Shown: one piece after another, positions 11,313 to 32,373 of the stretch | How the letters are laid out: each line of letters opens with the position of its first letter | Position numbering within the stretch: the first letter of the stretch is position 1 | NCBI GenBank assembly: GCA_903878085.1 | Contig: CAIRGJ010000062.1 | Span: 62,001 to 126,000 of the forward strand | From: an uncultured Hyphomicrobiales bacterium | GTDB taxonomy: Bacteria; Pseudomonadota; Alphaproteobacteria; Rhizobiales; Xanthobacteraceae | DNA length: 64,000 nt | Direction: 5' to 3' | Translations under genes and position numbers: made by a program | Notes under the pieces: model-generated | Told to the model about the DNA's origin: nothing | The model's database searches: none | What the model saw: only the letters and a program-made list of their open reading frames with translations

Positions 11313-11557
11313 TTGGCGGTCTCCTCGCAGGCGGCTCGTACCGCCCATTATTGTTTTGCGTCAGCATGGGCGGCGGGTGCGGCACCCGTCAACCGGCCGC
11401 CACGACATTCTCAAGGAACGCCGGAATCGGCCTGGCCGGTGAGCGGAACGATAGACAGCCTTGCGGAAACCGGCCAAACTTACGGCCGGACATCGGTACG
11501 CCAGAGACCGGGCCGCAAAGAAAAAAATAGCGACCAGGGGCGGGAGGAACCAAGGCG

Positions 11558-12457
11558 ATGATGAGCGGCACCACAGTCGCATCGAGATCGGCCGTACCAG
11601 GCGCCGGCGCGCGCAAGGAAGCGGCCGGCCGCTCGCGCGGCGGCAACGCCGCCGATGCCGGCCAGCCTTTGCTCGACGTGCGCGGCGTCACCATCCAGTA
11701 CAAAACCCAGCACCATCTGATCACCGCGACTTACCGTGTCAGCTTCAAAGTCTTGCAAGGCGACCGCTTCGTCGTGGTCGGACCGTCCGGTTGCGGCAAG
11801 TCGACGTTGCTCAAGGCCGTCGGCGGCTATCTGGCGCCGACCGAGGGCGAGATCCGCCTCAAGGGCGAGTTGATCACCAAGCCCGGCCCGGACCGGCTGA
11901 TGGTGTTCCAGGAGTTCGATCAACTGCTGCCGTGGATGACGGTGCTCGAGAACGTTGTGTTCCCGCTCAAGACCACAGGCACGTTGCAGGGCAAAGCCGC
12001 GATTGAACGCGCCATGCATTATATCCAGAAGGTCAAATTGACCGACTTTGCCAACAGCTATCCGCACACTCTGTCCGGGGGCATGAAACAGCGCGTGGCG
12101 ATTGCGCGCGGCATGGCGATGGAGCCGGACATCCTGTTGATGGACGAGCCGTTCGCCGCGCTCGACGCGCTGACCCGCACCCGCATGCAGGACGAGCTGC
12201 TGCAATTATGGGACGAAATCCGTTTCACGGTGCTGTTCGTCACCCATTCGATTCCCGAGGCGATCAAGCTCGGCAGCCGTATCCTGCTGCTGTCGCCGCA
12301 TCCGGGGCAGGTGAAGGCCGAGATCAACAGCGTGCCGCGCGGCCAGGAAAATTCCGACGAGGCCGCTGCGCTTGGCCGCGAAATTCACGACATGCTGTTC
12401 GCCGATCAAATCGAGGAGGCGCCCCATGCATCAAGCGCAAACATTCCCGGTCACTGA
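11558..12457 (+). CDS. ABC transporter ATP-binding protein, NitT/TauT (SsuB/TauB) type
   Basis: A 299-residue ATPase. Walker A is GPSGCGKST (about residues 77-85), the Q-loop lies in MVFQEFDQLLPW, the signature is LSGGMKQR and Walker B is ILLMDEPFAAL, with the switch His in FVTHS. The first 40 residues are a low-complexity Ala/Arg/Gly extension not seen in most homologues. GGGAGG precedes the ATGATG start. It overlaps the permease gene by 32 nt. The operon (ATPase, permease, binding protein) is divergent from the aldolase operon and shares its 245-nt promoter region, so the two are probably co-regulated. Confidence 0.92.
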   Translation: MMSGTTVASRSAVPGAGARKEAAGRSRGGNAADAGQPLLDVRGVTIQYKTQHHLITATYRVSFKVLQGDRFVVVGPSGCGKSTLLKAVGGYLAPTEGEIRLKGELITKPGPDRLMVFQEFDQLLPWMTVLENVVFPLKTTGTLQGKAAIERAMHYIQKVKLTDFANSYPHTLSGGMKQRVAIARGMAMEPDILLMDEPFAALDALTRTRMQDELLQLWDEIRFTVLFVTHSIPEAIKLGSRILLLSPHPGQVKAEINSVPRGQENSDEAAALGREIHDMLFADQIEEAPHASSANIPGH

Positions 12458-17623: not shown

Positions 17624-19609
17624 ATGACCGAGTACCCGGCGCCAGGCCGCGAGGCCGATCTGATTTCACGCGTGCGCGCGGCGGCGCGCCAGGAGCAGTT
17701 TCTCGACGTGGTTTCCGCCGATGAAGCCCGCGCCCGATTTATCGCTCACATCGATATGGCGCCGCTCGGCGACGAGACCGTGTTGCTGAGCGATGCGCTG
17801 GGCCGCGTGCTGGCGCATGATGTGGTGGCGGCGGTCGACGCGCCGCCGTTCGACCGCTCCAATGTCGACGGCTTCGCGCTACGCGCCGCCGATACGCTCG
17901 GCGCCGGCGATGTCGCGCCGAAGATTTTTACGCTCAACGGCGAAGTGATCGCCTGCGGTCATGCCCCGGCGCTGGAAGTAGAGTCCGGCACAGCGACGAC
18001 GATTGCGACCGGCGGCGTCATTCCGCGCGGCGCCGACGCAGTGGTGATGATCGAACAGACCGAACTGATTGGCGATGACCCACCGCGCATTGAGTTGCGC
18101 CGCGCCGCGGCGCCCGGTCAGTTCGTCTCCTACGCCGGTTCCGACATCGCGCGGGGCGAAACCTTGCTCAGGCGCGGCGCGCGCATCGGCTCACGCGAAA
18201 TCGGCATGCTGGCGGCGAGCGGATTGGCGCATATCGACGTGGTGCGGCGGCCGAAGGTCGCGGTGCTGTCCACCGGCGACGAACTGGTCGAGCCGGGCAA
18301 GCAGCTTCGGCCGGCCAGCGTCTACGACAGCAATGGCGCCATCATCGCCGCCGCGGTTTCGGAAGCCGGTGGCGTGCCGCTGGCGATGGGTGCATTTCCC
18401 GATGACGCCGCGGCGCTGGAAGAGGCGGTGCGCGAGGCGCTGGCGGCGAGCGACATGGTGGTGCTGTCGGGCGGCACCTCGAAAGGCGCCGGCGATCTGT
18501 CGCACGCCATCGTGTCGCGGCTGGGGCGGCCGGGCATCCTCGTGCATGGCGTCGCGCTCAAGCCGGGCAAGCCGCTCTGCCTCGGCGTCATCGACAAGAA
18601 GCCGATCGTGGTGCTGCCGGGCTTTCCGACCTCGGCGATCTTCACGTTCCACGCTTTCGTCGCGCCGGTGATCCGCGCGCTGGCCGGTTTGCCACCGGAA
18701 GCGGCCGAAACTGTGCACGCGCGCGTGCCGGTGCGCATCGCGTCTGAGTTGGGCCGCAAGGAATTCGTGCTGGTGTCGCTGATCGACAGCGAGCAAGGCG
18801 TCATCGCGTTTCCGACCGGCAAAGGTTCCGGCTCGGTGACCAGCTTCTCGCAGGCCGACGGCTTTCTTGAAATCGACGCGCTGGCGTCGTCGCTCGATGC
18901 CGATAGCGACGTGCAGGTGACGTTGATCGGTAGCGCCGCGCAGGCGCCCGACCTGGTCATTATGGGTAGCCACGATGTGGCGCTCGATGTGGTGGTCGGC
19001 AGCCTGGCCGAGCGCGGCTTTTCGGCGCGCACGCTGGCGGTCGGCAGTCTCGGCGGCGTCGCAGCCGCCGGCCGCGGCGAATGCGACATTGCGCCGGTGC
19101 ATCTGATCGATCCGGCGAGCGGACAATATAATGTGCATCTGGTGTCGCCCGGCCTGACGCTGGTGCCGGGCTGGCGGCGCATGCAGGGCGTGCTGTTCCG
19201 CTTGGGCGACAAGCGCTTCGAGGGCCGTACGGCGCGGGAGGCGCTGGCCGCGATCGTCGCCGATCCGGCCGCGCTGATGGTCAACCGCAATGCCGGCGCT
19301 GGCACCCGGGTGCTGATCGATAGTCTGCTGGCCGGCGCGCGCCCGCCCGGTTACGCCAACCAGCCGAAGTCGCACAACGCGGTGGCGGCGGCGATCGCGC
19401 AGGGCCGCGCCGACTGGGGCGTCGCCATCGAGCCGGTGGCCAGGCTCTACGGCCTCGGCTTCCTGGAACTGGCGTCCGAGCACTACGATTTCCTAGTGGT
19501 CGAAAGCCGCCGCGACCGGCCAGCGGTGCAGGCCTTCTTCGCCGCACTACGCGACGAGACAACGCGCCAACGCATTCGCGCGCTCGGTATGCAGCCAGCC
19601 GATGACTAG
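17624..19609 (+). CDS. MoeA-like molybdotransferase fused to a periplasmic-binding-protein-like domain
   Basis: A 661-residue fusion. Residues about 20-430 match MoeA, which inserts molybdenum into adenylylated molybdopterin: PPFDRSNVDGFA near 80, STGDELVEPG near 217 and GGTSKGAGD near 283. Residues about 440-661 are a PBP-like (PF12727-type) domain starting VIMGSHDVALDVV, with MVNRNAGAGTRVLID near 550 and SHNAVAAAIAQGRADWG near 585. The same fusion occurs in archaeal and some bacterial MoeA paralogues and is often linked to molybdo- or tungstoenzymes. No signal peptide, so the PBP-like domain is cytoplasmic and may sense or hold molybdate/tungstate or a cofactor. It precedes the formate dehydrogenase locus, which fits a dedicated cofactor role. 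Confidence 0.88.
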   Translation: MTEYPAPGREADLISRVRAAARQEQFLDVVSADEARARFIAHIDMAPLGDETVLLSDALGRVLAHDVVAAVDAPPFDRSNVDGFALRAADTLGAGDVAPKIFTLNGEVIACGHAPALEVESGTATTIATGGVIPRGADAVVMIEQTELIGDDPPRIELRRAAAPGQFVSYAGSDIARGETLLRRGARIGSREIGMLAASGLAHIDVVRRPKVAVLSTGDELVEPGKQLRPASVYDSNGAIIAAAVSEAGGVPLAMGAFPDDAAALEEAVREALAASDMVVLSGGTSKGAGDLSHAIVSRLGRPGILVHGVALKPGKPLCLGVIDKKPIVVLPGFPTSAIFTFHAFVAPVIRALAGLPPEAAETVHARVPVRIASELGRKEFVLVSLIDSEQGVIAFPTGKGSGSVTSFSQADGFLEIDALASSLDADSDVQVTLIGSAAQAPDLVIMGSHDVALDVVVGSLAERGFSARTLAVGSLGGVAAAGRGECDIAPVHLIDPASGQYNVHLVSPGLTLVPGWRRMQGVLFRLGDKRFEGRTAREALAAIVADPAALMVNRNAGAGTRVLIDSLLAGARPPGYANQPKSHNAVAAAIAQGRADWGVAIEPVARLYGLGFLELASEHYDFLVVESRRDRPAVQAFFAALRDETTRQRIRALGMQPADD

Positions 19610-20879
19610 GTGCCTGCGCGCATTATTGTTGCTGCTGCCGTTCGCGTTCGGTCCGGCACATGCTCAGTTGCGCGGCCACGGCGGCCCGGTGCGCGCGCTG
19701 GCGATTTCACCGGACGGCAAGACCGCGCTGTCCGGCAGTTTCGATTCATCGGCGATCCGATGGTCGCTCGAGCGCAACGCCGCCGAGCAGGTGCTGCGCT
19801 TCCACGGTAGCGCGGTGAATGCGGTTGCGATTCTGCCGGATGGCCGGCTGGTGACCGGCGGCGAAGACGGCAAGATCGCGCTCTGGAAGTCGGGCGCGGC
19901 CGAACCGCTCAAGCAGTTTGAGGGTCATACCGCGCCGATCGTCTCCCTCGCGGTATCGCCCGATGGCAAAATGATCGCGTCGGCGTCGTGGGATCGCACG
20001 GTACGCGTTTGGCCGGTCGATGGCGGCCCACCCTTGCTGCTCGAAGGCCACCAGCAGAACGTCAATGGCGTCGTCTTCATGCCGGACGGCAAGGCCGTGG
20101 TCAGCGTGAGCCACGATCCGCAAATCCGCATTTGGCCGCTTAATGGCGGGCCTGCGACCATCGTGACGTTGGCGACGCCGCTGAATTCCGTCACCGTCGC
20201 ATCCGATGGCGAGATCGCCGTCGGCGGCGCCGACGGCAAAGTCTATTTCTATTCGGCGCAGGGCGAGCCGCGCGGCGAAGTCGAGACCGCGCCGACGCCG
20301 ATCATCGCGGTGACGGTGTCGCCTGACGGCAAGCGGGTTGCCGCCGCCAGCATTCGCGGCTCGGTGGCGATCATCGATCGCGCGTCCCGCAAGCTCGAAC
20401 ACACGCTGGTCGGCCCCGGCCTGCCGGTGTGGTCGTTGGCGTTCTTTTCCGATAGCCGCACATTATTGACCGGCGGCGCCGACCGCATGATCCGCCGCTG
20501 GGACGCCGCGAGCGGCGATCCGATTGATGCTGTGGTGGTCGGTGCGCCGAACGATCCGCTGGCCGTTTATGCCGGCGATCCGGGCGCGCAAGTCTACCGA
20601 GCCTGCATCTCCTGCCACGCGCTGACGCCCGACGAGGGCGAGAAGGCCGGTCCCAGCCTTGCTGGAATTTTCGGCCGCAAGATCGCAACGTTGCCGGGCT
20701 ACCGTTATTCCGACGCGCTTAAACGCATGGATATCGTGTGGACGCCGGAGACGGTGGCGAAGATGTTCGAGGTCGGGCCGTCGGTCTACACGCCTGGCAC
20801 CAAGATGCCGGAACAGACCATCGGTTCGGCTGACGATCGCAAGGCGCTGGTGGAGTTTCTCGGCAAGGCGACGAGATAA
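19602..20879 (+). CDS. Exported WD40-repeat protein with C-terminal cytochrome c domain
   Basis: A 425-residue protein with a Sec signal peptide (LRALLLLLPFAFGPAHA, cleavage near residue 21). Residues about 22-315 hold seven WD40-like blades with recurring LAISPDGK and IRxW units. The C-terminal 100 residues are a class I cytochrome c with heme motif CISCH (335-339), GPSLAGIFGR and a distal Met in GTKMPEQ. It overlaps the moeA-like stop by 8 nt. A periplasmic electron-transfer role next to formate dehydrogenase is plausible: the beta-propeller could dock a partner. Similar propeller-cytochrome fusions are known, but I do not know a characterised function for this one. Confidence 0.88.
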   Translation: MTRCLRALLLLLPFAFGPAHAQLRGHGGPVRALAISPDGKTALSGSFDSSAIRWSLERNAAEQVLRFHGSAVNAVAILPDGRLVTGGEDGKIALWKSGAAEPLKQFEGHTAPIVSLAVSPDGKMIASASWDRTVRVWPVDGGPPLLLEGHQQNVNGVVFMPDGKAVVSVSHDPQIRIWPLNGGPATIVTLATPLNSVTVASDGEIAVGGADGKVYFYSAQGEPRGEVETAPTPIIAVTVSPDGKRVAAASIRGSVAIIDRASRKLEHTLVGPGLPVWSLAFFSDSRTLLTGGADRMIRRWDAASGDPIDAVVVGAPNDPLAVYAGDPGAQVYRACISCHALTPDEGEKAGPSLAGIFGRKIATLPGYRYSDALKRMDIVWTPETVAKMFEVGPSVYTPGTKMPEQTIGSADDRKALVEFLGKATR

Positions 20880-20892
20880 CGATGCGAAGCGA

Positions 20893-22920
20893 TTAACTCT
20901 CGCCCTTCTGCTCGCGCTCGCGCAGATAGTCGTCGGTGGTGCGCACCGGTGGACGCGGCGTGGTGGCGAACGGGTCGAAATTTTCCTTTGCCATCGCGCT
21001 GACACGGCAATCCGCGCACATCCGGATGACGTCGAGCCGTTTCTTGGAGTCCTTGAACATCCAGTGCTGGCCTTCGAGCTTGGCGATCACGCGCTCGATG
21101 GTGCTTTTGACTCCGAACGGCGTGTTGCAACTGATGCAGAGAAACGGCTCTTCTTGCTTGATGATCCGGTTCATCGCGGTGGCGGCGAGGAAATTGATTT
21201 GCGGCGTCAGGCTGATCACCTTCTCGGGGCAGGTCGCCTTGCACAGTCCGCATTGCACGCAGGCATCTTCCGCGAAACGCAGCATCGGCCGCTCGGGGTC
21301 GGCCGACAGCGCGCCGGTCGGGCAGGCCGACACGCAGGCCAGACACAGCGTACAACCTTCGACATTCACATCGATCGTGCCGAACGGTGCGCCGTCCGGC
21401 AGCGCCACGACATTGACCGGTGCCGGCGCCACCGCATGCATCTCGCGCAGCGCCAGCCGCATCACGTCGCGCTTGCCGCCGATGGCGGAGAAGGTGGCGG
21501 GCTTTGCGGCGCCATCCATCGGCGCCACAGCCCGCAAGGCGCTGCCAAGCGCGTCCGGGTCGTCGGTCTCAATGGTCGCGATACGCGCGCCGTCAAAGCC
21601 AAGCCCTGCGAGGATCGGCTCCGCCAGCGCGATGGTCTTGGCAAGGCCGGCGACATCGTGGCGCGGTTTGGCGCGAAGGAGAAACCGCACTGCCGATGCA
21701 CCATAGGCAAATGACGCGGCCACGGCTTCCAAGCCAACCTGGGTGACTTCGTTGATCTGCACCGGCAACACATTTGCCGGCAGTCCATCGCCGTGACGCG
21801 CCAGCGCATGGATCAATTCGCCGCCGTGCTCGGCATCATAGAACATCACCACCGCGCGCTTGCCACCGGCTTCGCGGTAGGCGCCAAGCAGCGCGCGCAA
21901 TGTGCGCAGCAGCGAGTCGGCCGGCGGCAACGCATAAGTCGCGGCGCCGGTCGGACAGGCGGCGGCGCATTGGCCGCAGCCGGCGCAGATTTGCGGATCG
22001 ATGATTACGTGGTCGCCGTTGGGCGAAATCGCCCCGGTCGGGCACAGATCGAGACAGCGGCGGCAGCCGACGATCTTGGAACGCGAATGCGCGCACAGAT
22101 CCTCGGTGAAATTGATGTAGCGCGGCTTGTCGAAGGCGCCGGTCAAATCGCGCGCCTTAAGCACGGCGCGCAACACGGCCGCCGGATCGCCCGGATCGGC
22201 GCGCAGATAGCCGTCGCGCAGATCGGCGGCCGGGAACAGCGGTGCTCCGCCGGACAGATCGATCAGGATGTCGCAGCGCGACGTCGCGCCGTGGCGCGAA
22301 GCGCCAAACGTCAGCGCGCCGCGCGACGACGGATGCGGCGCGGCGAAATCGTCGACCGTCAGTTCGAACGCGCCGAGATGGCCCTTGGCCTGCCGGATGG
22401 TGCCCTTCACCACCGGGAATTCGGTGACGCGCAGCGGCGCGACGCCGGTCGGCTGCTTGATCAGCACGGTAAGGTCGAGATGCTCTTTCAAAAGATTGGC
22501 GGCTTCGATCACCCGCTCGTCCTTGCCGTAGAGCAGCGTGACGCCTTCGCTATTGAGCGTAACGTAAGATGCCTCGGGCACGGGCTCCGCCGCCGCTGCA
22601 ATCAGCGCCGCCATCTTCGGCCCGGCAGCCTGGGCGTCCTTCGCCCACCCGGCGTTCTCGCGAATGTTGACGAAAGTAATCGCTCCGGCGCCCTCGATCT
22701 CTTGCGCAACCTCGGTGAAGAGCGGCGCTTCCTGCGTGCAGGCAACCGCCAACGGCTCGCCACCGGCGGCAATTTTACGAAACCGATCCAGCTCGGCGCG
22801 ACAAAGCTCGCGGCCTTCGACCACCACGGCATCGCGGCAAGCGCGGCGCACCGCCTGGCCGTCGAGCGGCATGGTGTCTTCACAGGAGCAGATCAGAACA
22901 TTACGCGGCCTGTCGGCCAT
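20893..22920 (-). CDS. Multi-[4Fe-4S] ferredoxin-type protein of formate dehydrogenase locus
   Basis: A 675-residue soluble iron-sulfur protein. An N-terminal part of about 250 residues is without clear homology to me. A ferredoxin module near 285-330 has an unusual first Cys set (C-x9-C-x2-C-x3-CP) and a standard CAGCGQCAAACP. A middle domain resembles the MvhD/HdrA-associated fold (VVMFYDAEHGGELI). A second module has CTLCLACVSACP and CVQCGLCKATCP. Near the C-terminus lie CISC and CADC pairs. The start is the ATG at 22918-22920, giving MADRPRNVLICSCED; a far longer in-frame extension overlaps the divergent gene and is rejected. It is divergent from the accessory block by 150 nt. Electron transfer or cluster delivery for formate dehydrogenase is inferred. 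Confidence 0.85.
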   Translation of the reverse strand: MADRPRNVLICSCEDTMPLDGQAVRRACRDAVVVEGRELCRAELDRFRKIAAGGEPLAVACTQEAPLFTEVAQEIEGAGAITFVNIRENAGWAKDAQAAGPKMAALIAAAAEPVPEASYVTLNSEGVTLLYGKDERVIEAANLLKEHLDLTVLIKQPTGVAPLRVTEFPVVKGTIRQAKGHLGAFELTVDDFAAPHPSSRGALTFGASRHGATSRCDILIDLSGGAPLFPAADLRDGYLRADPGDPAAVLRAVLKARDLTGAFDKPRYINFTEDLCAHSRSKIVGCRRCLDLCPTGAISPNGDHVIIDPQICAGCGQCAAACPTGAATYALPPADSLLRTLRALLGAYREAGGKRAVVMFYDAEHGGELIHALARHGDGLPANVLPVQINEVTQVGLEAVAASFAYGASAVRFLLRAKPRHDVAGLAKTIALAEPILAGLGFDGARIATIETDDPDALGSALRAVAPMDGAAKPATFSAIGGKRDVMRLALREMHAVAPAPVNVVALPDGAPFGTIDVNVEGCTLCLACVSACPTGALSADPERPMLRFAEDACVQCGLCKATCPEKVISLTPQINFLAATAMNRIIKQEEPFLCISCNTPFGVKSTIERVIAKLEGQHWMFKDSKKRLDVIRMCADCRVSAMAKENFDPFATTPRPPVRTTDDYLREREQKGES

Positions 22921-23070
22921 GGGCTCTCTAACCTTTCGCAGTGCAACCCAGGTTCGGCGAATGCCGCTACGGCATATTGGCCGCTGATCCGGCACGGCCA
23001 CGGGACTGGCCTCTGGACCTTCTGAGGCGTAACTATAGATATTCCAATGAGCAAGTAACAGTGAGGATCG

Positions 23071-23832
23071 ATGCCCGAGGAAGCGCGCACGCGAAGGATG
23101 ACGCCATCGGCGCCGGAACTCTCGCTGCCGTCGCTGTTCACTCCGGTGCGTCTGCGCGAAGTGGGCGACGCCTTCGCACATGCAACATCGATTGCGGCCG
23201 ATCAGGGCGCAGGCACTTTGGTCTATGTCGGACGCTTCGATCTCGCCGAGTTCGCCTTGGTGCTGGAACCGGCGGAGCCGCTGCGCCAGGCGCGCCGCGC
23301 CTTCTATGCCGGCATGGTGGCGCTGGCCGATGCGTTGTCCGCCCACGCCTTGCCCGAGACCACCATCACCATCGACTGGCCCGACGCGGTTGCGGTCAAT
23401 TACGGTCTGGTGGGCGGCGGACGGTTGGGCTGGCCGCAGGGCATAAGCGAAGATCAGACGCCGCCCTGGCTGGTGTTCGGCGCCATGATCCGCACGGTGT
23501 CCGTGACCGGCGCCGAGCCGGGCCTTAATCCGCTTTCCACCGCGCTGGAGGAGGAAGGCTTCACCGAGACGATGTCGATTGAGGTGATCGAGAGCTTCGC
23601 GCGCCATTTCATGCTCGCTCTCGATTCCTGGCAGGAGTACGGCTTCGGCGCGGTGGCGAAAGATTATCTGGCGCGCATGCCCGCCGAAAAGGCCGTGCGC
23701 CGCGCTATCGACGACAATGGCGATCTGCTGATCAGCAGCATGGGCAAGGGTGAGGTCGAGCGCCAAGCGCTGCTTCCGCGGCTCGCGACGCCAAGCTGGC
23801 TCGATCCCCAAACAAGGGGCCCGCGCGCGTGA
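23071..23832 (+). CDS. Biotin/lipoate protein ligase-fold protein with degenerate active site
   Basis: A 253-residue protein resembling the BPL_LplA_LipB_2 family with a DUF4444-like C-terminal domain. The fold is recognisable from DQGAGTLVYVGRFDLAEFALVLEP and TITIDWPDAVAVNYGLVGGG, which line up with the GRGRRGR and KWPND...K-x-GGIL stretches of biotin ligases. Here the glycine/arginine loop reads GAGTLVY, KWPND reads DWPDA, and the lysine before GGG is missing. Canonical adenylation is therefore doubtful. GTGAGG lies upstream of the ATG. It overlaps the next gene by 4 nt and starts the plus-strand formate dehydrogenase operon. Confidence 0.75.
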   Translation: MPEEARTRRMTPSAPELSLPSLFTPVRLREVGDAFAHATSIAADQGAGTLVYVGRFDLAEFALVLEPAEPLRQARRAFYAGMVALADALSAHALPETTITIDWPDAVAVNYGLVGGGRLGWPQGISEDQTPPWLVFGAMIRTVSVTGAEPGLNPLSTALEEEGFTETMSIEVIESFARHFMLALDSWQEYGFGAVAKDYLARMPAEKAVRRAIDDNGDLLISSMGKGEVERQALLPRLATPSWLDPQTRGPRA

Positions 23833-24371
23833 AGCTGTTGCGCACCATCAGGCTCGATCCCTCGGACACGTTTGTGTTCGACAAGGCGGCCGAGCCCGGC
23901 GAATGGGCGGTGTCCGGTGCTTTCGTGTTTTGGGGCAGCGATCCGGCCGATTTGCAAGGCAAGGCACGCTCGGCGTTTCGCAGCGGATTTCTCGGCGTCG
24001 CGTCGCTCGGCTGGTCGACGCTGGTGCAGATCGTGGAGGCGAGCGAGGCCGACCGCGTAGCGCTGGTCGAGGCGCTGGTGCAAAGGCTCGTTGAGAATTT
24101 CGGCGCGCCCGATCTGGCCTCCGCCCGCGCCGCCGCCGAGGAAGAAGTGACCTTCGCCGAGTCGCTGTGCAGCGAGGCGCAGGATACCTTGGTGGCGGTG
24201 CATCGCGCCAACGAGGATGGCGCGGTGCATGAGACCTTCCGCACGCTGCGCCCGCGCAATGGCTCGAAGCCGCAGCGTGTGTTCTCGTTCTTCGAAGTGG
24301 AAGGCGATGACGACACGCAGCCGGCCGAATCCGTCGATCTGATCGGTATGGCCGGACGGGATCGCACATGA
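23829..24371 (+). CDS. DUF6505 family protein
   Basis: A 180-residue cytoplasmic protein without signal peptide or membrane segments. It opens MKLLRTIRLDPSDTFVFDKAAEPGEWAVSGAFVFW and has an acidic, Glu/Ala-rich middle and a C-terminal FSFFEVEGDDD stretch. I recognise it only as a conserved companion of formate dehydrogenase accessory genes in Bradyrhizobium-like genomes (DUF6505). It overlaps both neighbours by 4 nt, implying tight co-translation. No catalytic motif is visible. Confidence 0.75.
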   Translation: MKLLRTIRLDPSDTFVFDKAAEPGEWAVSGAFVFWGSDPADLQGKARSAFRSGFLGVASLGWSTLVQIVEASEADRVALVEALVQRLVENFGAPDLASARAAAEEEVTFAESLCSEAQDTLVAVHRANEDGAVHETFRTLRPRNGSKPQRVFSFFEVEGDDDTQPAESVDLIGMAGRDRT

Positions 24372-25375
24372 ACGACTTCTGGATTTCCAGCGGCCATCAT
24401 CTGCTCGACCGCGACGCGGGCGGCGGCCTGCTGCTGACCGACGATTTTCTCAAGGTCTACATGGCGCGGCCCGAGATCATTCCGCCGCCGGAAGCTTGCG
24501 CGGTCGAGCGCGCGCTATACGCCGCGCTGCTGGCCGATCCGCGCATGCCGGTGTCGGCGTCCGACATCGCAGGAATCGCCGATGCCGATGCGCGCGAGAA
24601 CTGGCAACTGCTGATCAAGTTCCGCGATCATCTGGTGCACCACAAGACGCTAGAAGCGGCCTATGTCGATCTGGTCAAACAGGGGCTGTCAAAAACGCCG
24701 TCGCTGTTCGTCAATCAGCTCGTACATTTGGTGATGCGCAACGCGCTCGACGGTGTCACCGATGCTCGCGTCGTGCGCGCCGGCGAAATGTTTTACCGCA
24801 CGCAACGCGTCACCATGCATGAAGGCTCGCTGATCGCGGCCGACGAGGAAAAGATCGGCGGCGCCAATCCGGCTTTGGTGTCGCCGCTGGTGTCCATGCT
24901 CGGCATTCCGGCCGAGGCGCATATCCACGTCATCAATGACGAGAACGCATCGGGTTATTGGGAGCGCAGCGATCGGTTCGACATGGCGATCGATCTGACC
25001 GCCGGCCGCGACGGACTGGTCGCGCTGGCGACTGCTATGCAACGCTGGATCGCGCATGTGCTCGGCGTCGACGTCACCATCGAACCGCTAACCGAAATGC
25101 GCGGCGTTAATCTCGCCTGGTATGTCGGGCTCGACGCCGACGCCACCAAGATCGGCGACAAGATGTGGAACGGCGAAGCGATCGATGACGCGGCGACGGC
25201 GCAAGTGATCGGGCTGTTCCAACTGACGTTCCGCGATCCGTCGCTCATGCTCGACCGCGTGCGCGGCGAGCCAGTCTATTTGATTTTGTCGATGACTGAA
25301 GACAAGCTGATCCGCATGAAGCCGCAAAACCTGATCGCGGGATTGCCGATCCGCCATCTGGAGGCCGTCGGATGA
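24368..25375 (+). CDS. DUF6352 family protein
   Basis: A 335-residue soluble protein starting MNDFWISSGHHLLDRDAGGGLLLTDDFLKVYMARPEI. A Trp-rich central region follows, with NAGEMFYRTQ-like and LGIPAEAHIHVINDENA segments, and the C-terminus has GEPVYLILSMTEDKLIRMKP. I know the family only as an uncharacterised gene beside molybdenum formate dehydrogenases. ATGA overlaps at both ends place it within the same coupled operon. Nothing in the sequence reveals a catalytic site; a structural or assembly role is a guess. Confidence 0.75.
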   Translation: MNDFWISSGHHLLDRDAGGGLLLTDDFLKVYMARPEIIPPPEACAVERALYAALLADPRMPVSASDIAGIADADARENWQLLIKFRDHLVHHKTLEAAYVDLVKQGLSKTPSLFVNQLVHLVMRNALDGVTDARVVRAGEMFYRTQRVTMHEGSLIAADEEKIGGANPALVSPLVSMLGIPAEAHIHVINDENASGYWERSDRFDMAIDLTAGRDGLVALATAMQRWIAHVLGVDVTIEPLTEMRGVNLAWYVGLDADATKIGDKMWNGEAIDDAATAQVIGLFQLTFRDPSLMLDRVRGEPVYLILSMTEDKLIRMKPQNLIAGLPIRHLEAVG

Positions 25376-25878
25376 GCGGTCCGCTCGTCAGCATTCCGGT
25401 TGGCGTCATTGTCGAGCGCAGCAAGGGCGCGACGCCGTGGGCGGAATTCTATTGGCGCGCGGTCAGCGTATTGCCCGGCCAGCCCGCCACTGCGGCATGG
25501 ACCAAGCTCAGCGACGACGGCGAGCGCATATCGTTTTATGCCGGCACCGCCGAGGTCCAGTTGTACCCAACCGAGACCGGCTTTTATCGCGACAATCTCC
25601 AGTCCGGCGCGCCCTCGTTTTGGGTAGCGCTGCGTCCGGTCGAAGCCGACCCGCCCTACATGGTGTCGGTGGTGACGGCGGATCCGAATGAAGGCGAAAG
25701 CCTCACCGAAACCGTAACCGATCTGGTCGAACAGGTGCCGATGCCGCTTACGATCCAACAGGTTGTCGCCGCTTTCGTCGCCGAGCATCATGTCGAGCAG
25801 CCTTTCGTCAAACGCAAGCGCGACCGCGCCGATCCCGAAGCGCTGGCGCGCCGCAGCCGCGGAGACGATTTCGAATGA
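25372..25878 (+). CDS. DUF3305 family protein
   Basis: A 168-residue protein opening MSGPLVSIPVGVIVERSKGATPWAEFYWRAVSVLPG, with a compact beta-rich core to about residue 110 (VQLYPTETGFYRDNL, PSFWVALRP) and a basic C-terminal tail (KRKRDRAD). DUF3305 proteins are found almost only beside DUF3306 and formate dehydrogenase genes. The basic tail of this protein and the acidic character of its DUF3306 neighbour could allow the two to pair; this is inference. It is coupled by 4-nt overlaps on both sides. Confidence 0.8.
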   Translation: MSGPLVSIPVGVIVERSKGATPWAEFYWRAVSVLPGQPATAAWTKLSDDGERISFYAGTAEVQLYPTETGFYRDNLQSGAPSFWVALRPVEADPPYMVSVVTADPNEGESLTETVTDLVEQVPMPLTIQQVVAAFVAEHHVEQPFVKRKRDRADPEALARRSRGDDFE

Positions 25879-26597
25879 GCGAGCCGGAAAATTTCCTGTC
25901 GCGCTGGTCGCGCCGCAAGCGGGAAATCGATGCGGAGCAGCCGCAGGCTGCGCCGGAAACGGCCGCGCAAGATTCTGCGCAAGAGCGAGCGCAAGACACC
26001 GCACAAGACACCGCGTCCACGGAGAAGTCCGCCGCCAATCCGGGGCCAGCATTACCGGAGCCGGTCTTCGATCCGGCCAGCCTGCCGCCCCTTGAGTCGA
26101 TCGGCGCTCAAACCGACATCACGGCCTTCCTGAAGGCCGGTGTCCCCAGCCAATTGCGGCTTGCGGCGCTTCGTCGCGCATGGCTGGCCGATCCGGCGAT
26201 TCGCGACTTCAAAGGCATGGCGGAATACGACTGGGACTTCACCGTGCCGGATAGCATGCGCGGCTTCGGCGAAATGGATCCCGGAACCGACGTCCAGAAA
26301 ATGCTGACGGAAATGTTCCCCGATGCTGCGAGCGCGCGTGAGAGAGTTGCGGAACTGACGAAACCTTCGGAGCAAATCACGCCATCGCAGCAGGAACCAA
26401 GTGGGCCGCCGGAACCGGACACAGCGCCCGCAGCTGAGGCGAAAGTCGAAAGCACGACAGCAACTCAAATCCAGACCGCCAAAAATAAAAATATGCTGCA
26501 GCGCGAAGAAAATATTGCAGCGCAAGATACAAAATCTGAGTCGGATGACCCGCAAATCAAACGTCGTCGCTCACAAGGTGGCGCGATGCCTCAATAG
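25875..26597 (+). CDS. DUF3306 family protein
   Basis: A 240-residue protein. It begins MSEPENFLSRWSRRKREID, the family hallmark (FLxRWSRRK), then a disordered Ala/Glu/Gln-rich linker. The conserved core at about 70-150 has LPPLESIGAQTDITAFLKAGVP, LRRAWLADPAIRDF and AEYDWDFTVPDSMRGFGEMDP. The tail is long and Lys/Gln-rich and looks disordered. The core can be compared with redox-partner or chaperone scaffolds, but no function is known to me. It ends the coupled run that began at 23071; a 91-nt gap precedes the torD-like gene. Confidence 0.82.
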   Translation: MSEPENFLSRWSRRKREIDAEQPQAAPETAAQDSAQERAQDTAQDTASTEKSAANPGPALPEPVFDPASLPPLESIGAQTDITAFLKAGVPSQLRLAALRRAWLADPAIRDFKGMAEYDWDFTVPDSMRGFGEMDPGTDVQKMLTEMFPDAASARERVAELTKPSEQITPSQQEPSGPPEPDTAPAAEAKVESTTATQIQTAKNKNMLQREENIAAQDTKSESDDPQIKRRRSQGGAMPQ

Positions 26598-26688
26598 CAG
26601 ACAATTATCCGGCACCTATAGCCTTAAGCTATTGACCCGCGCCCGCATCGCAGTACCTTCACATTGCAACTATTTGAAAGTGAGCCGC
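26598..26688 (+). promoter_or_regulatory. Probable promoter/operator region before the HTH-TorD gene
   Basis: A 91-nt gap that is markedly A/T-richer than its surroundings around 26625-26680. It contains TTCACATT and TTTGAAAGTGA half-sites that form an imperfect TCAC...GTGA dyad (about 26658-26684). Since the next protein carries an N-terminal helix-turn-helix, autoregulation here is a specific possibility. No confident -35/-10 pair was identified. Confidence 0.35.
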
Positions 26689-27462
26689 ATGCGCGACGCG
26701 GGTCTCAATGAAGCCATTCGTGCTGCCGGAAGCGTATCCGAGCTCGCGCGGCAATTGGGGATCTCGCAGCCTTCGGTTTCAAATTGGAACCGCGTGCCCG
26801 CGGAGCGCGTGGTGGCGGTTGAAACCCTTACTGGCGTCGATCGCGTGGTGCTGCGGCCCGATCTGTTCGGCGAAAATCAAATGACCGGCGATGTCGATGA
26901 AATAGATGCCGCGCGCGCGCAGGAATACGCGCTGCTCGCGGCGTTATTGGTGCGTGCGCCGGATGCGGCGCTGCTCAACCGGCTCGCTAGCCTGTGCGGC
27001 GACGCAAGTCCGCTGGGTGTGGCGCATGTCGCGCTGGCGGAAGCCGCCGCCAACGTTACCGTCGAGAAAGCCGAGCGCGAGTTTTTCAATCTTTTCATCG
27101 GCGTCGGCCGCGGCGAGCTGATGCCTTACGCGTCTTATTATCTCACCGGTTTCCTGCACGAGCGCCCGCTGGCACGGCTGCGCGGCGACCTAGGTACGCT
27201 CGGCATCGAGCGTGTCGAAGGCAATGTCGAGCCGGAAGATCACGCCGCGACCTTGTGCGAGATCATGGCGGGTCTTGCCTCGGGCCGCTTCGGTCGCGCC
27301 GGCAGCGATCAGGAAATCTTCGAAAAACACATCGCGCCGTGGATGGGACGCTTTTTCAGCGATCTCGAACAGGCCGAGGCTGCGCGGTTTTACCGGCCGG
27401 TCGGAATGATCGGCTGCTTATTGATGGACATCGAGGCGGAAGCTTTCGCGCTGAACGCATAA
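26689..27462 (+). CDS. TorD/DmsD-type molybdoenzyme chaperone with N-terminal YdaS/Cro-like helix-turn-helix
   Basis: A 257-residue fusion. Residues 1-62 form a Cro/YdaS-like DNA-binding domain (LNEAIRAAGSVSELARQLGI, then SQPSVSNWNRVPAERV). Residues about 75-257 are the all-helical TorD family of chaperones that bind Tat signal peptides of molybdoenzymes, with REFFNLFIGVGRGELMPYASYYL near 130 and EDHAATLCEIMAGLA near 180. It would hold apo-FdhA for cofactor insertion before Tat export. The fused DNA-binding domain could let chaperone occupancy control transcription. The start is ATG 26689; GTG 26680 is an alternative three codons upstream. It directly precedes the small Tat protein and fdhA. 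Confidence 0.88.
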   Translation: MRDAGLNEAIRAAGSVSELARQLGISQPSVSNWNRVPAERVVAVETLTGVDRVVLRPDLFGENQMTGDVDEIDAARAQEYALLAALLVRAPDAALLNRLASLCGDASPLGVAHVALAEAAANVTVEKAEREFFNLFIGVGRGELMPYASYYLTGFLHERPLARLRGDLGTLGIERVEGNVEPEDHAATLCEIMAGLASGRFGRAGSDQEIFEKHIAPWMGRFFSDLEQAEAARFYRPVGMIGCLLMDIEAEAFALNA

Positions 27463-27720: not shown

Positions 27721-30669
27721 GTGCTGATCAAAAGAGCAGAACGTCAGGCGCGCCGCGGCAGTCTTGCAGCCGCGATCGGCAGTCAAACGGCCGGCGGCGT
27801 CGACCGCCGCGCCTTCCTCCGCAAATCCGGCCTAGTCGCCGGCGGTCTCGCCACGATCGGCGCGCTGCCGCTCGGCAGCGTCCGCAAGGCGGAAGCCGCC
27901 GGCAGCTATGTCGCCGGCGCCACCATCCGCAAGAACATCTGCACGCACTGTTCGGTCGGCTGCACCGTCATCGGCGAAGTCTCGAACGGCGTCTGGGTCG
28001 GCCAGGAGCCGGGCTGGGAAAGCCCGATCAACCGCGGTTCACATTGCGCCAAGGGCGCGTCGACCCGCGAACTGGTGCACGGCGACCGCCGTCTGCGCTA
28101 TCCGATGAAGCTCGTGAATGGCGAGTGGACGCGGATTTCCTGGGACGTCGCGATCAACGAGATCGGCGACAAGATGATGGAGATCCGCAACAAGTCGGGC
28201 GCCGATTCCGTCTATCATCTCGGTTCGGCCAAGTTCACCAACGAAGGCGCGTATCTGTACCGCAAGTTCGCCGCCTTCTGGGGCACCAACAGCGTCGACC
28301 ATCAGGCGCGCATCTGCCATTCGACCACCGTCGCCGGCGTTGCCAATACCTGGGGCTACGGCGCGCAGACCAACAGCTACACCGACATCCGCAACTCGAA
28401 GACGATCCTGTTCATCGGCAGCAACGCGGCCGAAGCGCATCCGGTTTCGCTCCAGCACATCCTGGAAGGCAAGGAATCCAACCGCGCCAACATGATCGTG
28501 GTCGATCCGCGCCTGACGCGCACCGCGGCCCATGCCACTGAATACGTCCGCATCCGTTCCGGCACCGATATCCCGGTGGTGTGGGGCATGTTGCACCACA
28601 TCTTCAAGAACGGCTGGGAAGACAAGCAGTTTATCGAGCAGCGCGTCTACGGCATGGACGACATCCGCAAGGAAGTCGCGAAGTGGACGCCGGAGGAAGT
28701 CGAGCGCGTCACCGGCGTTCCCGGCGCGCAGCTCGAACGCGTCGCCAAAATGTTTGCCACCGAAAAGCCGGCGACGTTGATCTGGTGCATGGGCGCGACC
28801 CAGCACACCGTCGGCACCGCCAACGTACGCGCTTTCTGCATTGCGCTGCTGGCAACCGGCAATGTCGGCGGCCCTGGCATGGGCGCCAACATCTTCCGCG
28901 GCCACACCAATGTGCAGGGCGCCACCGATCTCGGCGTTGATATCGCGAACCTGCCGCTCTATTACGGGCTGGTTGAAGGCGCTTGGCGCCATTGGTCGCG
29001 TGTCTGGGAAGTCGACTATCAATACTTCGTCGATCGCTTCGACAAGTCGACCGGGCCGGACGGCAAAGTCACCAACACGATGAACACGCCCGGCATCCCA
29101 TCGACCCGGTGGTTCGACGCCACACTCCTCGACCAGAAGGACGTGAAGCAAAAAGACAACATCAAAGCGATGTTCATCATGGGTCACGGCGGCAATACCG
29201 TGACGCGCGTGCCGCAGGCGCGGAAGGGCGTCGAGAAGCTTGAATTGCTGGTGGTCTGCGACCCGCATCCGACCACCTGGGCTTCGATGTCGCCGGAGCG
29301 CAAGAACGGCACCTACCTGCTGCCGATCGCCACCAGTTACGAGACCAACGGGTCGCGCACCGCGTCCAACCGCGCGCTGCAGTGGGGCGAGCAGATCGTC
29401 AAGCCGATCTTCGAGTCCAAGGACGATCTCGAGGTCATGTACCTCCTGGCCAAGAAGCTCGGCTTCGCCGAGCCGATGTTCAAGAACATCAAGGTCGAGA
29501 ATAACGTGCCGGTGCCGGAAGACATCCTCCGCGAGATCAACCGCGGCGGCTGGTCCACCGGCTACTGCGGTCAGTCGCCGGAGCGCCTGAAGTCGCATAT
29601 GGCCAATCAGCGCGACTTCGACATGCTGACGCAGAAGGCCACCACTGGCGCGAATAAAGGCGATTATTACGGCCTGCCGTGGCCGTGCTGGGGCAAGCCC
29701 GAGTTCAAGCATCCGGGCACGCCGCTGCTCTACAACACCAACCTCTCGGTCAAGGAAGGTGGCGGCACGTTCCGCGCCCGCTTCGGTCTCGAACGCGAGG
29801 AAACGCTCCCCGATGGCAGCAAGCGCAAGGTCAGCCTGCTCGGCAACGGTTATTACTCCAAGGACTCCGAAATCAAGGACGGCTATCCGGAGTTCACGCT
29901 CGGCGTGCTCAAGAAGCTGGGCTGGGACAAGGACCTGACGCCGGAAGAACTGGCCGTGATAGCAAAGGTCAATCCGGCTACGCCGGATGCGGTTTCCTGG
30001 GCCATCGACTTGTCAGGCGGTATTCAGAGAGTCGCCATTGAGCACGGCTGCGTCCCGTACGGAAACGGCAAGGCGCGCGCCAACGCGTTCGGCTTGCCCG
30101 ACGCCATCCCGGTGCACCGCGAGCCGATCTACACGCCGCGGCCCGAACTGGTCGCCAAGTACCCGACGCTGCCGAATGCCGTGCAGTTCCGGGTGCCGAA
30201 TATCGGCTTCGACGTGCAGAAGGCCGCGGTCGACAAGGGCATCGCGAAGCAGTTCCCGCTGATCCTGTCGTCCGGCCGTCTGGTCGAATACGAGGGCGGC
30301 GGCGAGGAAACCCGCTCCAACAAGTGGCTCGCCGAGTTGCAGCAGGACATGTTCATCGAGATCAATCCAGGCGATGCCGCCGAGCGCGGCATCAAGGATG
30401 GTGGCTGGGTCTGGGTGACCGGCGCGGAGAACAACTCCAAGGCCAAGATGAAGGCGCTGGTGACCGAACGCGTCGGCAAGGGCGTGACCTGGTGTCCGTT
30501 CCACTTCGGTGGCTGGTTCGAGGGCGTCGATCAACGCGCCAACTATCCGAAGGGAACTGATCCGATCGTGCTGGGCGAGAGCGTGAACGCGCTCACCACT
30601 TACGGCTTCGATCCCGTCACCGGCATGCATGAACCAAAAGCCACCCTCTGCCAGGTCAGAGCGGCTTAA
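27721..30669 (+). CDS. fdhA: Formate dehydrogenase catalytic (alpha) subunit, Tat-exported, cysteine form
   Basis: A 982-residue molybdopterin enzyme oxidising formate to CO2 at the periplasmic side. The Tat signal has RR at 29-30 (DRRAFLRKSG). A [4Fe-4S] site uses C74, C77, C81 and C109 (CTHCSVGC ... HCAKG). The Mo ligand is Cys199 in RICHSTTVAG, the position held by selenocysteine in E. coli FdnG, so no SECIS element is needed. MIVVDPRLTRTA and the C-terminal molydopterin-dinucleotide domain (LILSSGRLVEYEGGGEETRSN) are intact. The start is GTG with AAGGAG upstream. Followed at 13 nt by fdhB. The protein is of normal length for FdnG-type subunits. Confidence 0.96.
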   Translation: MLIKRAERQARRGSLAAAIGSQTAGGVDRRAFLRKSGLVAGGLATIGALPLGSVRKAEAAGSYVAGATIRKNICTHCSVGCTVIGEVSNGVWVGQEPGWESPINRGSHCAKGASTRELVHGDRRLRYPMKLVNGEWTRISWDVAINEIGDKMMEIRNKSGADSVYHLGSAKFTNEGAYLYRKFAAFWGTNSVDHQARICHSTTVAGVANTWGYGAQTNSYTDIRNSKTILFIGSNAAEAHPVSLQHILEGKESNRANMIVVDPRLTRTAAHATEYVRIRSGTDIPVVWGMLHHIFKNGWEDKQFIEQRVYGMDDIRKEVAKWTPEEVERVTGVPGAQLERVAKMFATEKPATLIWCMGATQHTVGTANVRAFCIALLATGNVGGPGMGANIFRGHTNVQGATDLGVDIANLPLYYGLVEGAWRHWSRVWEVDYQYFVDRFDKSTGPDGKVTNTMNTPGIPSTRWFDATLLDQKDVKQKDNIKAMFIMGHGGNTVTRVPQARKGVEKLELLVVCDPHPTTWASMSPERKNGTYLLPIATSYETNGSRTASNRALQWGEQIVKPIFESKDDLEVMYLLAKKLGFAEPMFKNIKVENNVPVPEDILREINRGGWSTGYCGQSPERLKSHMANQRDFDMLTQKATTGANKGDYYGLPWPCWGKPEFKHPGTPLLYNTNLSVKEGGGTFRARFGLEREETLPDGSKRKVSLLGNGYYSKDSEIKDGYPEFTLGVLKKLGWDKDLTPEELAVIAKVNPATPDAVSWAIDLSGGIQRVAIEHGCVPYGNGKARANAFGLPDAIPVHREPIYTPRPELVAKYPTLPNAVQFRVPNIGFDVQKAAVDKGIAKQFPLILSSGRLVEYEGGGEETRSNKWLAELQQDMFIEINPGDAAERGIKDGGWVWVTGAENNSKAKMKALVTERVGKGVTWCPFHFGGWFEGVDQRANYPKGTDPIVLGESVNALTTYGFDPVTGMHEPKATLCQVRAA

Positions 30670-30682
30670 AGGAGCAACGATC

Positions 30683-31279
30683 ATGGCACGTATGAAATTT
30701 CTCTGCGACGCCGACCGTTGCATCGAATGCAACGCCTGCGTCACCGCCTGCAAAAACGAACATGAGGTGCCGTGGGGCATCAACCGCCGGCGCGTGGTCA
30801 CGATCAATGACGGCAAGCCGGGCGAGCGTTCGGTGTCGATGGCTTGCATGCACTGCACCGACGCGCCTTGCGCGGCGGTGTGTCCGGTCGATGCTTTCTA
30901 TACGACTGCCGATGCCGTCGTCCTGCACTCCAAGGACATCTGCATTGGTTGCGGCTATTGCTTCTACGCCTGCCCATTCGGCGCGCCGCAATATCCCAAA
31001 GTCGGCAATTTCGGTTCGCGCGGCAAGATGGACAAGTGCACCTTCTGCGCTGGCGGCCCGGAAGCCGACAACAGCAAGGAAGAGTACGAGAAATACGGCG
31101 CCAACCGTCTGGCCGAAGGCAAGCTGCCGCTGTGCGCCGAGATGTGTTCGACCAAATCGCTGCTCGCCGGCGACGGCGACATCATCGCGCAGATCTACAA
31201 GGCCCGCGTCATCAGACGCGGCTACGGCTCCGGCGCCTGGGGCTGGCAGACGGCCTATAGCGAGACGATCGCGACCTGA
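30683..31279 (+). CDS. fdhB: Formate dehydrogenase iron-sulfur (beta) subunit
   Basis: A 198-residue four-cluster ferredoxin subunit passing electrons from FdhA to the membrane cytochrome b. It has CIECNACVTACKNEH at about 13-27, CMHCTDAPCAAVCP around 57, CIGCGYCFYACP around 90 and a C-terminal CTFC...CAEMC set. It lacks the C-terminal membrane anchor of E. coli FdnH and matches the shorter FdhB of Wolinella/Campylobacter-type enzymes. The start ATG at 30683 has AAAGGAG upstream. A short AAAGCGG/CCGCTTT hairpin lies between it and fdhC. Confidence 0.94.
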   Translation: MARMKFLCDADRCIECNACVTACKNEHEVPWGINRRRVVTINDGKPGERSVSMACMHCTDAPCAAVCPVDAFYTTADAVVLHSKDICIGCGYCFYACPFGAPQYPKVGNFGSRGKMDKCTFCAGGPEADNSKEEYEKYGANRLAEGKLPLCAEMCSTKSLLAGDGDIIAQIYKARVIRRGYGSGAWGWQTAYSETIAT

Positions 31280-31362: not shown

Positions 31363-32373
31363 ATGACGGGGCTTTTAACGCGAGTGCGCTTCGTTGCCGG
31401 TGCTTTGGCGCTGGCGTTCATCGTCGCTATGGCAGCCCCGGTCTCGGCGCAGCAGCCAGCCTCGGTCAATCCGACCGCCAGCGCCGTGCAGGAGCAGCAG
31501 CTTCTCAAGGAGCTCAACAAGATTCAGGGTCGCGGTACTATCCCCGACGTGAAGTCATATGTCCTTGAGCATCCGGCCGGGCAGGAATGGCAGCATTTCC
31601 ACACTGTCACGCTCAAATGGATCGGCGCCGTTGCGATTATCGGCACGCTGGGGCTCCTTGTGATCTTTTATCTGGTGCGCGGCTCGGTCCGTATCGAGAG
31701 GGGACGTTCGGGAATCAAGATTGTCCGGTTCACAGGATTCGAGCGGTTCGTACACTGGATGACGGCAGTCTGTTTTGTCGTGATGGCACTGAGCGGTCTC
31801 AACATTACGTTCGGCAGAGCACTGCTGCTGCCGTTGCTCGCTCCGGAGACGTTCACCGCAATTTCGGAACTGGCAAAATATTTCCACAATTATCTCAGCT
31901 TCCCGTTCACGCTCGGCGTGGTTTTGATCCTGTTCATGTGGATCGCAGGCAATATCCCGAACAGCGTCGATGTCGAATGGGTTAAGCGTGGCGGCGGCAT
32001 TGTCGGGCACGATCATCCTCCAGCTTACCGGTTCAACGCCGGCCAAAAGGCAATCTTTTGGATTCAGGTCTTGGGCGGAACGGCGATGGTGATGAGCGGC
32101 TATGTATTGATCTTCCCGTTCTACGGCACTGGCGTTGCCGGCATGGAACTCGCCGAAATGGTGCACGGGATTGTCGCGATGCTCTACATCGCCACCATGT
32201 TGGGACACATTTATATCGGCTCGCTTGGTATGGAAGGCGCCTTCGAGGCGATGGGCGAGGGCACCGTCGACCTCAATTGGGCAAAGGAGCACCACAGTCT
32301 GTGGCTTGAGGAAGAAGCGGTGCGCGGTTCAGGTGAAGTTCCCCGCGAGGCCATGACCAGGCCGGCTGAATAG
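31363..32373 (+). CDS. fdhC: Formate dehydrogenase cytochrome b556 (gamma) subunit
   Basis: A 336-residue membrane diheme cytochrome b that accepts electrons from FdhB and reduces quinone. A cleavable signal-like N-terminus (to about residue 32, VSAQ) and a 60-residue periplasmic segment precede four membrane helices. FERFVHWMTAVCFVVMALSG carries the first heme His, FHNYLSFPF and EMVHGIVAMLYIATMLGHIYIG later ones. The start at ATG 31363 has AGGAGG six nt upstream; ATG 31357 directly abuts that site and is less likely. Compared with E. coli FdnI (about 220 residues) the extra N-terminal part is normal for the longer proteobacterial FdhC form. Confidence 0.92.
   Translation: MTGLLTRVRFVAGALALAFIVAMAAPVSAQQPASVNPTASAVQEQQLLKELNKIQGRGTIPDVKSYVLEHPAGQEWQHFHTVTLKWIGAVAIIGTLGLLVIFYLVRGSVRIERGRSGIKIVRFTGFERFVHWMTAVCFVVMALSGLNITFGRALLLPLLAPETFTAISELAKYFHNYLSFPFTLGVVLILFMWIAGNIPNSVDVEWVKRGGGIVGHDHPPAYRFNAGQKAIFWIQVLGGTAMVMSGYVLIFPFYGTGVAGMELAEMVHGIVAMLYIATMLGHIYIGSLGMEGAFEAMGEGTVDLNWAKEHHSLWLEEEAVRGSGEVPREAMTRPAE

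Follow-up and report, generated by a model that had tools for sequence, protein, structure and literature searches.

A formate dehydrogenase locus with a fused TorD-type chaperone

We analyzed a stretch of 64,000 nucleotides (hereafter the window) from an uncultured Hyphomicrobiales bacterium (GenBank assembly GCA_903878085.1, contig CAIRGJ010000062.1, positions 62,001 to 126,000), in which the genes of a formate-dehydrogenase-type molybdopterin oxidoreductase, fdhABC, are preceded by a block of accessory genes and by a gene for a TorD-type chaperone joined to a predicted helix-turn-helix (HTH) domain. These features suggest a biogenesis locus of a molybdenum formate dehydrogenase exported through the twin-arginine translocation (Tat) pathway, at which the fused chaperone, HTH-TorD, probably regulates transcription of its own gene and of fdhABC. 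A ferredoxin gene on the reverse strand diverges from a run of five forward-strand genes (ligase-like, DUF6505, DUF6352, DUF3305 and DUF3306), followed after a gap by HTH-torD, a Tat-signal microprotein gene and fdhABC (Table 1). An earlier note on this DNA had described the block, and its gene set, coordinates and family assignments were all borne out. The note had also seen an unbroken chain of overlapping genes running into the enzyme genes; 4-nt overlaps are present at the four junctions from the ligase-like gene to DUF3306, but 91 nt (26598-26688) interrupt the chain before HTH-torD. This gap contains a predicted promoter and operator.

Table 1 Genes and predicted regulatory elements of the locus, in window coordinates
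Feature	Position	Strand	Remarks
Polyferredoxin-like protein, 675 aa	20893..22920	-	24 invariant Cys in alignment; divergent from block
Biotin-protein-ligase-fold pseudo-enzyme (PF16917), 253 aa	23071..23832	+	Without KWPN lysine and GRGRxGR loop
DUF6505 (PF20115), 180 aa, GTG start	23829..24371	+	4-nt overlap with ligase-like gene
DUF6352 (PF19879), 335 aa	24368..25375	+	4-nt overlap with DUF6505
DUF3305 (PF11749), 168 aa	25372..25878	+	4-nt overlap with DUF6352
DUF3306 (PF11748), 240 aa	25875..26597	+	4-nt overlap with DUF3305
Predicted operator ATAG-N7-CTAT (ATAGCCTTAAGCTAT)	26618..26632	.	Sole copy in the 64-kb window
Predicted -35 element TTGACC	26632..26637	+	Shares 1 nt with operator
Predicted -10 element TACCTT	26654..26659	+	16-nt spacer
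HTH-TorD, 257 aa	26689..27462	+	Cro/YdaS-type DNA-binding domain (residues ~6-62) and DmsD/TorD chaperone
Tat-signal microprotein, 69 aa	27499..27708	+	Sub-threshold TIGR02811
fdhA, formate-dehydrogenase-type molybdopterin oxidoreductase	27721..30669	+	Twin-arginine signal read by eye
fdhB, 4Fe-4S subunit	30683..31279	+	Start codon uncertain
fdhC, cytochrome b subunit	31363..32373	+	Start codon uncertain

All five products of the run matched their Pfam families well above the cut-offs of 23.9-27 bits (23.9 for DUF6505 and 25 each for DUF6352, DUF3305 and DUF3306), scoring 190.8 bits for PF16917, 189.9 for DUF6505, 208 for DUF6352, 137.2 for DUF3305 and 92 for DUF3306. FdhA carries Pfam domains of molybdopterin oxidoreductases above cut-off; its best NCBIfam match, TIGR01591, reached 454.8 bits, below the cut-off of 666.25, and the gamma subunit FdhC exceeded that of TIGR01583 (163.5 versus 115.85 bits). 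Given its twin-arginine signal, FdhA is probably exported. In its Tat motif and its place in the locus, the microprotein resembles TIGR02811 (formate dehydrogenase region TAT target), and its 41.9 bits over the full model did not reach the cut-off of 48.45.

By its domain matches, the protein is a fusion of a Cro-type DNA-binding domain with a DmsD/TorD chaperone, apparently a new point. The HTH part matched PF15943 with 56.4 bits (cut-off 30) and the Cro structure 3bd1 (E 5.4e-8), and the chaperone part matched PF02613 with 91.1 bits (cut-off 22.2) and the DmsD structure 3cw0 (E 1.9e-5). The NCBIfam equivalog cut-offs were not reached, the protein scoring 41 of 132 bits for TorD and 31.4 of 162 for DmsD. 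A single open reading frame spanned HTH and TorD in 50 of 74 TorD frames among the best 80 loci of the scan described below, and in a sample of 367 genomes of the window's class (class sample), 10 of 53 TorD matches covered both parts, the window included.

DmsD/TorD Tat chaperones of the NarJ subfamily also occur in formate dehydrogenase operons, with a PF02613 domain beside fdh, DUF3305 and DUF3306 as in the window; the chaperone described here differs from them in carrying a Cro-type HTH and a conserved predicted operator. In the available parts of PMC4464133, DUF3305 and DUF3306 are labeled putative membrane proteins and placed upstream of dmsD-fdhGHI operons (60 %), the neighbors named in a figure legend include a Tat protein and a 4Fe-4S gene, and species with TorD beside fdh have fdhD/fdhE in trans; its main text, as available, makes no mention of helix-turn-helix, DNA-binding, YdaS or transcription. 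The accessible portion of PMC10609526 contains no HTH-TorD fusion or operator, and our searches of open-licence full texts turned up no account of the fusion, the operator, the link between DUF6352 and formate dehydrogenase, or the pseudo-ligase.

Co-occurrence of the accessory genes with the enzyme

In 150 genomes sampled from the window's phylum (phylum sample; Pseudomonadota, judging by named relatives, which likewise place the class sample in Alphaproteobacteria), DUF3305, DUF3306, the ferredoxin and FdhA of the window type were found in an identical set of 18 genomes. FdhA matches occurred in 22 genomes, 18 of them scoring at least 964 bits; the remaining four had only 206-213 bits, as expected of other molybdoenzymes. 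DUF6505 (12 genomes) and DUF6352 (7 genomes) lay entirely within the 18 FdhA genomes. PF16917 was present in 94 genomes, and its 11 strong matches (at least 165 bits) all fell within the DUF6505 set. In the class sample, DUF3305 was found in 55 and TorD in 53 of the 367 genomes, 51 being common to both.

We then considered the loci around DUF6352, taking the best 80 of at least 560 confirmed relatives, a choice that favors kin of the query. Presence was counted in those 54 loci that span 20 kb or more, the 26 shorter ones (L069 among them) being set aside. The ferredoxin, DUF3305, DUF3306, TorD, the microprotein, FdhA and FdhB were present in all 54, the ligase-like protein in 51, DUF6505 in 53 and FdhC in 51. 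The earlier proposal that the block is dedicated to this formate dehydrogenase is thus well supported by both the 18 shared genomes and the 54 loci, and the DUF genes were not found to be widespread in genomes without the enzyme. An exception was a lone DUF6352 found in the 3.3-Mb metagenome-assembled genome L069, which has no FdhA of the window type (best match 188 bits). There, at positions 9953-12195, DUF6352 is followed by mobB, with mobA in convergent orientation (labels by eye). An independent link between DUF6352 and the cofactor was weakened as an explanation by several relatives (e.g., L051 and L053) that have mobB and mobA beyond fdhC, and for this reason the L069 gene may be a deletion remnant.

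These counts separate a core from an add-on. The core, consisting of the polyferredoxin, DUF3305 and DUF3306, accompanies this enzyme type in all the genomes sampled, with a TorD-type chaperone adjoining; the add-on, consisting of the pseudo-biotin-ligase, DUF6505 and DUF6352, is found in a part of these genomes. Because the core co-occurs fully with the enzyme type in the 150-genome sample, its helper genes are candidates for the missing factors in heterologous production of such formate dehydrogenases, enzymes sought for CO2 reduction.

Co-occurrence of this kind would also arise if the DUF genes were passengers, inherited or transferred jointly as one cluster. Most copies are clustered, and some are on plasmids (DUF6352 in 10 of 72,556 plasmid records). 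In genome G016, however, the ferredoxin, DUF3305, DUF6352 and DUF6505 are all retained although scattered across ~0.4 Mb, DUF6352 lying ~0.3 Mb and DUF6505 ~0.4 Mb away from DUF3305. Since the genes are kept when scattered, the set seems to be maintained by function as well as by linkage, and with the 18/18 congruence in the phylum sample we regard the passenger explanation as very improbable. DUF6352 is distant from the operon in G019 as well, and no cofactor genes were seen by eye among the neighbors of the scattered DUF6352 and DUF6505 genes in either genome.

The earlier note had taken the overlaps as a sign of fixed stoichiometry. The corresponding alternative, in which FdhA receives its cofactor or electrons from a stable complex of fixed stoichiometry and the HTH is of minor importance, draws on the strict co-occurrence of the core and on the conservation of the 4-nt overlaps across the best 80 loci (ligase-like/DUF6505 59/72, DUF6505/DUF6352 61/75, DUF6352/DUF3305 45/79 and DUF3305/DUF3306 63/73). 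It is also favored by a lead that points DUF3305 to cofactor guanylation or delivery: DUF3305 matched NF011058, the model of a MobA-DUF3305 fusion, at 220-368 of 382, which is its DUF3305 part (E 4.5e-23, 81.4 bits, far under the whole-protein cut-off of 820), and mobA, mobB and fdhD lie within the flanks of 17, 20 and 11 of the 54 loci, respectively. Against this, 4-nt overlaps are frequent in bacterial operons and indicate translational coupling, not stoichiometry. DUF6352 stands far from the operon in G016 and G019, and in six further loci (L019-L024) the ligase-like gene and DUF6505 sit ~3-5 kb from DUF3305 in genomes from which DUF6352 is absent. With genes so scattered and split, the overlaps are no guide to a fixed stoichiometry, and we consider such a complex rather unlikely.

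The broader proposal of a maturation machine for FdhA fared better and is plausible from gene content. The TorD chaperone, the MobA-DUF3305 fusion model and the presence of mobA, mobB or fdhD near some loci speak for it, but this support does not extend to individual maturation steps. FdhD, the bis-molybdopterin guanine dinucleotide chaperone of formate dehydrogenases in the available parts of PMC6239281, which treats FdhD-like chaperones, likewise serves maturation of the enzyme. It was found in 56 of the 150 phylum-sample genomes, and the idea that the block replaces it was rejected because FdhD is separately encoded in all 18 block-bearing genomes.

Two arrangements of the block stand apart. 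In L019-L024, the pseudo-ligase gene is immediately preceded by a P-loop gene of the ApbC/Mrp-like type (label by eye), an arrangement that hints at Fe-S delivery; no such gene was found in the 54 DUF6352 loci. Bradyrhizobium erythrophlei GAS478 has two copies of the locus (L076 and L081) in the order TAT-fdhABC-ferredoxin-DUFs-TorD, with TorD lacking the HTH and no ligase-like gene detected.

A predicted operator and promoter in front of HTH-torD

The inverted repeat ATAG-N7-CTAT, a pattern that is its own reverse complement, was found within 130 bp upstream of the fused gene in 42 of 51 HTH-bearing loci (window included), with a spacer of 7 nt in 42/42. Two further HTH-bearing loci had an exact copy farther upstream, and three had a copy with one mismatch. 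None of 24 loci without the HTH had the repeat within 350 bp upstream. Because the motif had been found by eye, all 4-base inverted repeats with spacers of 0-14 were counted as a control; ATAG-N7-CTAT ranked first with 42/51, the next unrelated dyad reached 11, and the best of 20 shuffled sets reached 2-3. In the 50 loci besides the window, 42 sites lay in the upstream 130 bp (two of them in L082), compared with 10 in the remaining 926 kb.

A second set of 30 loci was taken among the best matches of 53 class-sample genomes (10 with and 20 without the HTH); this set did not use DUF6352 as its anchor and partly overlaps the first. Here, the site was present in 7 of 10 HTH-bearing loci, or in 5 of 8 without the window and one probably shared contig, and in 0/20 loci without the HTH anywhere in the locus. 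In the three HTH-bearing loci without the site (L141-L143), the HTH differs by eye. Upstream of HTH-torD, L141 and L143 share an inverted-repeat-like GTTAC ... GTAAGT (by eye), which may be an altered operator matching an altered HTH.

Of the 42 regions, 27 have TTGAC adjoining the site, overlapping it by 1 base in 8 and lying 7-10 bp downstream in 19. TANNNT followed at a spacing of 16-18 in 24 of these 27, a number counted without a shuffle control. The center of the site would accordingly fall near -43 or -53 of a predicted promoter, one helical turn apart, and with such positions an activator touching RNA polymerase fits at least as well as a repressor.

Several observations weigh against regulation by HTH-TorD through this site and the wider reading of the locus. 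The motif was first spotted by eye in the same set in which it was later counted. Four HTH-bearing loci (L118, L116, L119 and L121) have no site within 250 bp at up to one mismatch, and 15 of the 42 site-bearing regions have no TTGAC nearby. A GC-rich dyad appeared in 12 of 50 control stretches inside torD, so dyads of such a count are not rare in such DNA. A tree-corrected test was underpowered: the best tree of 75 TorD domains shows 8 changes of the HTH and 7 of the site, yet supported branches yield just 2 independent pairs, neither of them opposite (p 0.5-1). In the class sample, DUF3305 occurred without a TorD match (E 1e-8) in G206, G264, G417 and G443, a TorD match occurred without DUF3305 in G444, and G164 was matched via the HTH part only. 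The match in G164 (G164:C86:35840-36046, 36.9 bits) covers residues 1-67 of HTH-TorD, without TorD.

The HTH-bearing loci without a site would be expected if the palindrome belonged to another regulator and the HTH of HTH-TorD were a dimerization or relic domain. Any regulator could equally explain an additional exact ATAG-N7-CTAT at the ferredoxin/ligase boundary, seen only in Bradyrhizobium L063 (~8672) and L070 (~8669). This explanation does not account for the absence of the site upstream in 24/24 loci without the HTH and throughout 20/20 such loci of the class sample, a pattern that holds among relatives, as the HTH-less Mesorhizobium loci L108, L113 and L115 lack the site and their HTH-bearing relative L114 has it. 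Moreover, the site lies directly 5' of the HTH gene. Cro-type autoregulators have their site in front of their own gene, and the Cro/YdaS-type phage repressors (3bd1, PF15943) share with HTH-TorD the HTH and, as a predicted operator in the present case, a short palindrome in this position; they differ in that the HTH of the block is fused to a maturation chaperone and its predicted site borders the promoter on the upstream side. We therefore consider another regulator unlikely.

Returning to regulation by HTH-TorD itself, we propose that its dimers would bind the palindrome ATAG-N7-CTAT beside a sigma-70-type promoter in the DUF3306/HTH-torD gap, and that HTH-torD, the microprotein gene and fdhABC would be controlled as a unit apart from the accessory block. 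The block would mature the exported enzyme in the cytoplasm, where HTH-TorD would guard the FdhA precursor. Tat precursor of FdhA held by the TorD part would alter DNA binding, and enzyme synthesis would follow maturation capacity. What the sequences establish is the gene content, the co-occurrence, the fusion and a conserved predicted operator that goes with the HTH; DNA binding and use of the promoter are deduced from these, and the sign of this regulation and the sensing through precursor occupancy are conjecture. In its full form, HTH-TorD would sense whether the chaperone is free or loaded with apo-FdhA and set fdhABC transcription via the palindrome, a feedback from folding to transcription in one protein; this remains tentative, and we rate it just short of probable. 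It is poorly understood how cells keep the synthesis of cofactor-rich enzymes destined for export in step with their capacity for maturation, and the locus suggests that the cell may tie production of the enzyme to the ability to mature it. With a DNA-binding domain on the chaperone and an identifiable operator, such coupling becomes directly testable. A wider regulon is not indicated, as the stricter pattern ATAGSNNNNNSCTAT had 3 sites in the organism's own 4.4-Mb genome (that of the window and those of L131 and L132) and 5 in a reversed control.

The pseudo-ligase, the polyferredoxin and neighboring genes

Judged by its motifs, the "ligase" of the block is a pseudo-enzyme, apparently a further new point; this character and the regulation through the HTH both go beyond the reading of the earlier note. 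Biotin protein ligases share the fold family PF16917, but the block protein lacks both of their motifs and is linked to fdh. None of 85 locus copies keeps the KWPN catalytic lysine, and none keeps the GRGRxGR biotin/ATP loop in a motif search, whereas five canonical controls (L040, L041, L042, L048 and L049) have both. Loss of the loop rests on the motif search and an alignment gap, the column count being uninformative since 83 of the 85 copies fill the columns through the alignment. Seven controls had been intended and five were usable; L039 gave no frame with both motifs, and the piece extracted from L032 missed the motif region, although the motif itself is present in that locus. Among the 85 copies are some from short contigs on which no fdh genes are visible (e.g., L059). 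The motifs of the PF16917 match in G016 (95.9 bits) mark it as a canonical biotin ligase, and it was removed from the linked count. A working lipoate or biotin ligase was rejected given the loss of both motifs. The solved homolog 3bfm (E 1.6e-28), deposited as 'Biotin protein ligase-like protein of unknown function', has an Asp at the position of the KWPN lysine in the alignment, and the pseudo-ligase reading would supply a functional context for this structure.

For the other block proteins, sequence searches of the PDB returned no convincing match (best E 0.46 for DUF6352, 0.28 for DUF6505 and 0.02 for DUF3305), and for DUF3305 a structural model of confident quality (predicted local distance difference test, pLDDT, 89.6) gave no recognized PDB fold match. 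Comparisons by hhalign of DUF6505 with DUF3305, DUF6352 with the ligase-like protein, and DUF6505 with the ligase-like protein revealed no homology among them.

The polyferredoxin has 24 invariant Cys across 15 aligned sequences, which leaves room for up to six 4-Cys sites. A degenerate MvhD-like domain, guessed by eye, was unsupported, the 20 matches being ferredoxin-type stretches. In one genome (G138:C23:83448-85421), the ferredoxin frame contains a single TAA stop, which could be a frame or read effect. With its many Cys and its presence in the same genomes as FdhA, the polyferredoxin could, together with its partners, carry electrons for formate oxidation instead of serving maturation. 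However, FdhA is probably exported and no signal peptide is apparent by eye in the ferredoxin, and FdhB and the b-type FdhC already supply an electron path, in addition to the WD40-cytochrome c gene found near many of the loci. We consider an electron-carrier role quite improbable and favor a role in biogenesis of the enzyme.

Two genes of the window precede the ferredoxin gene in window coordinates. One, at 19602-20879, encodes a WD40 repeat protein whose C-terminal part shows a CxxCH of the haem type (by eye); such a gene was near fdh in 46 of the 54 loci, and its product is a possible periplasmic electron acceptor. The other, at 17624-19609, encodes a fusion of MoeA with a PBP-like domain (PF03453/PF00994/PF03454 plus PF12727), and a MoeA-related gene was near the fdh locus in 29 of the 54 loci.

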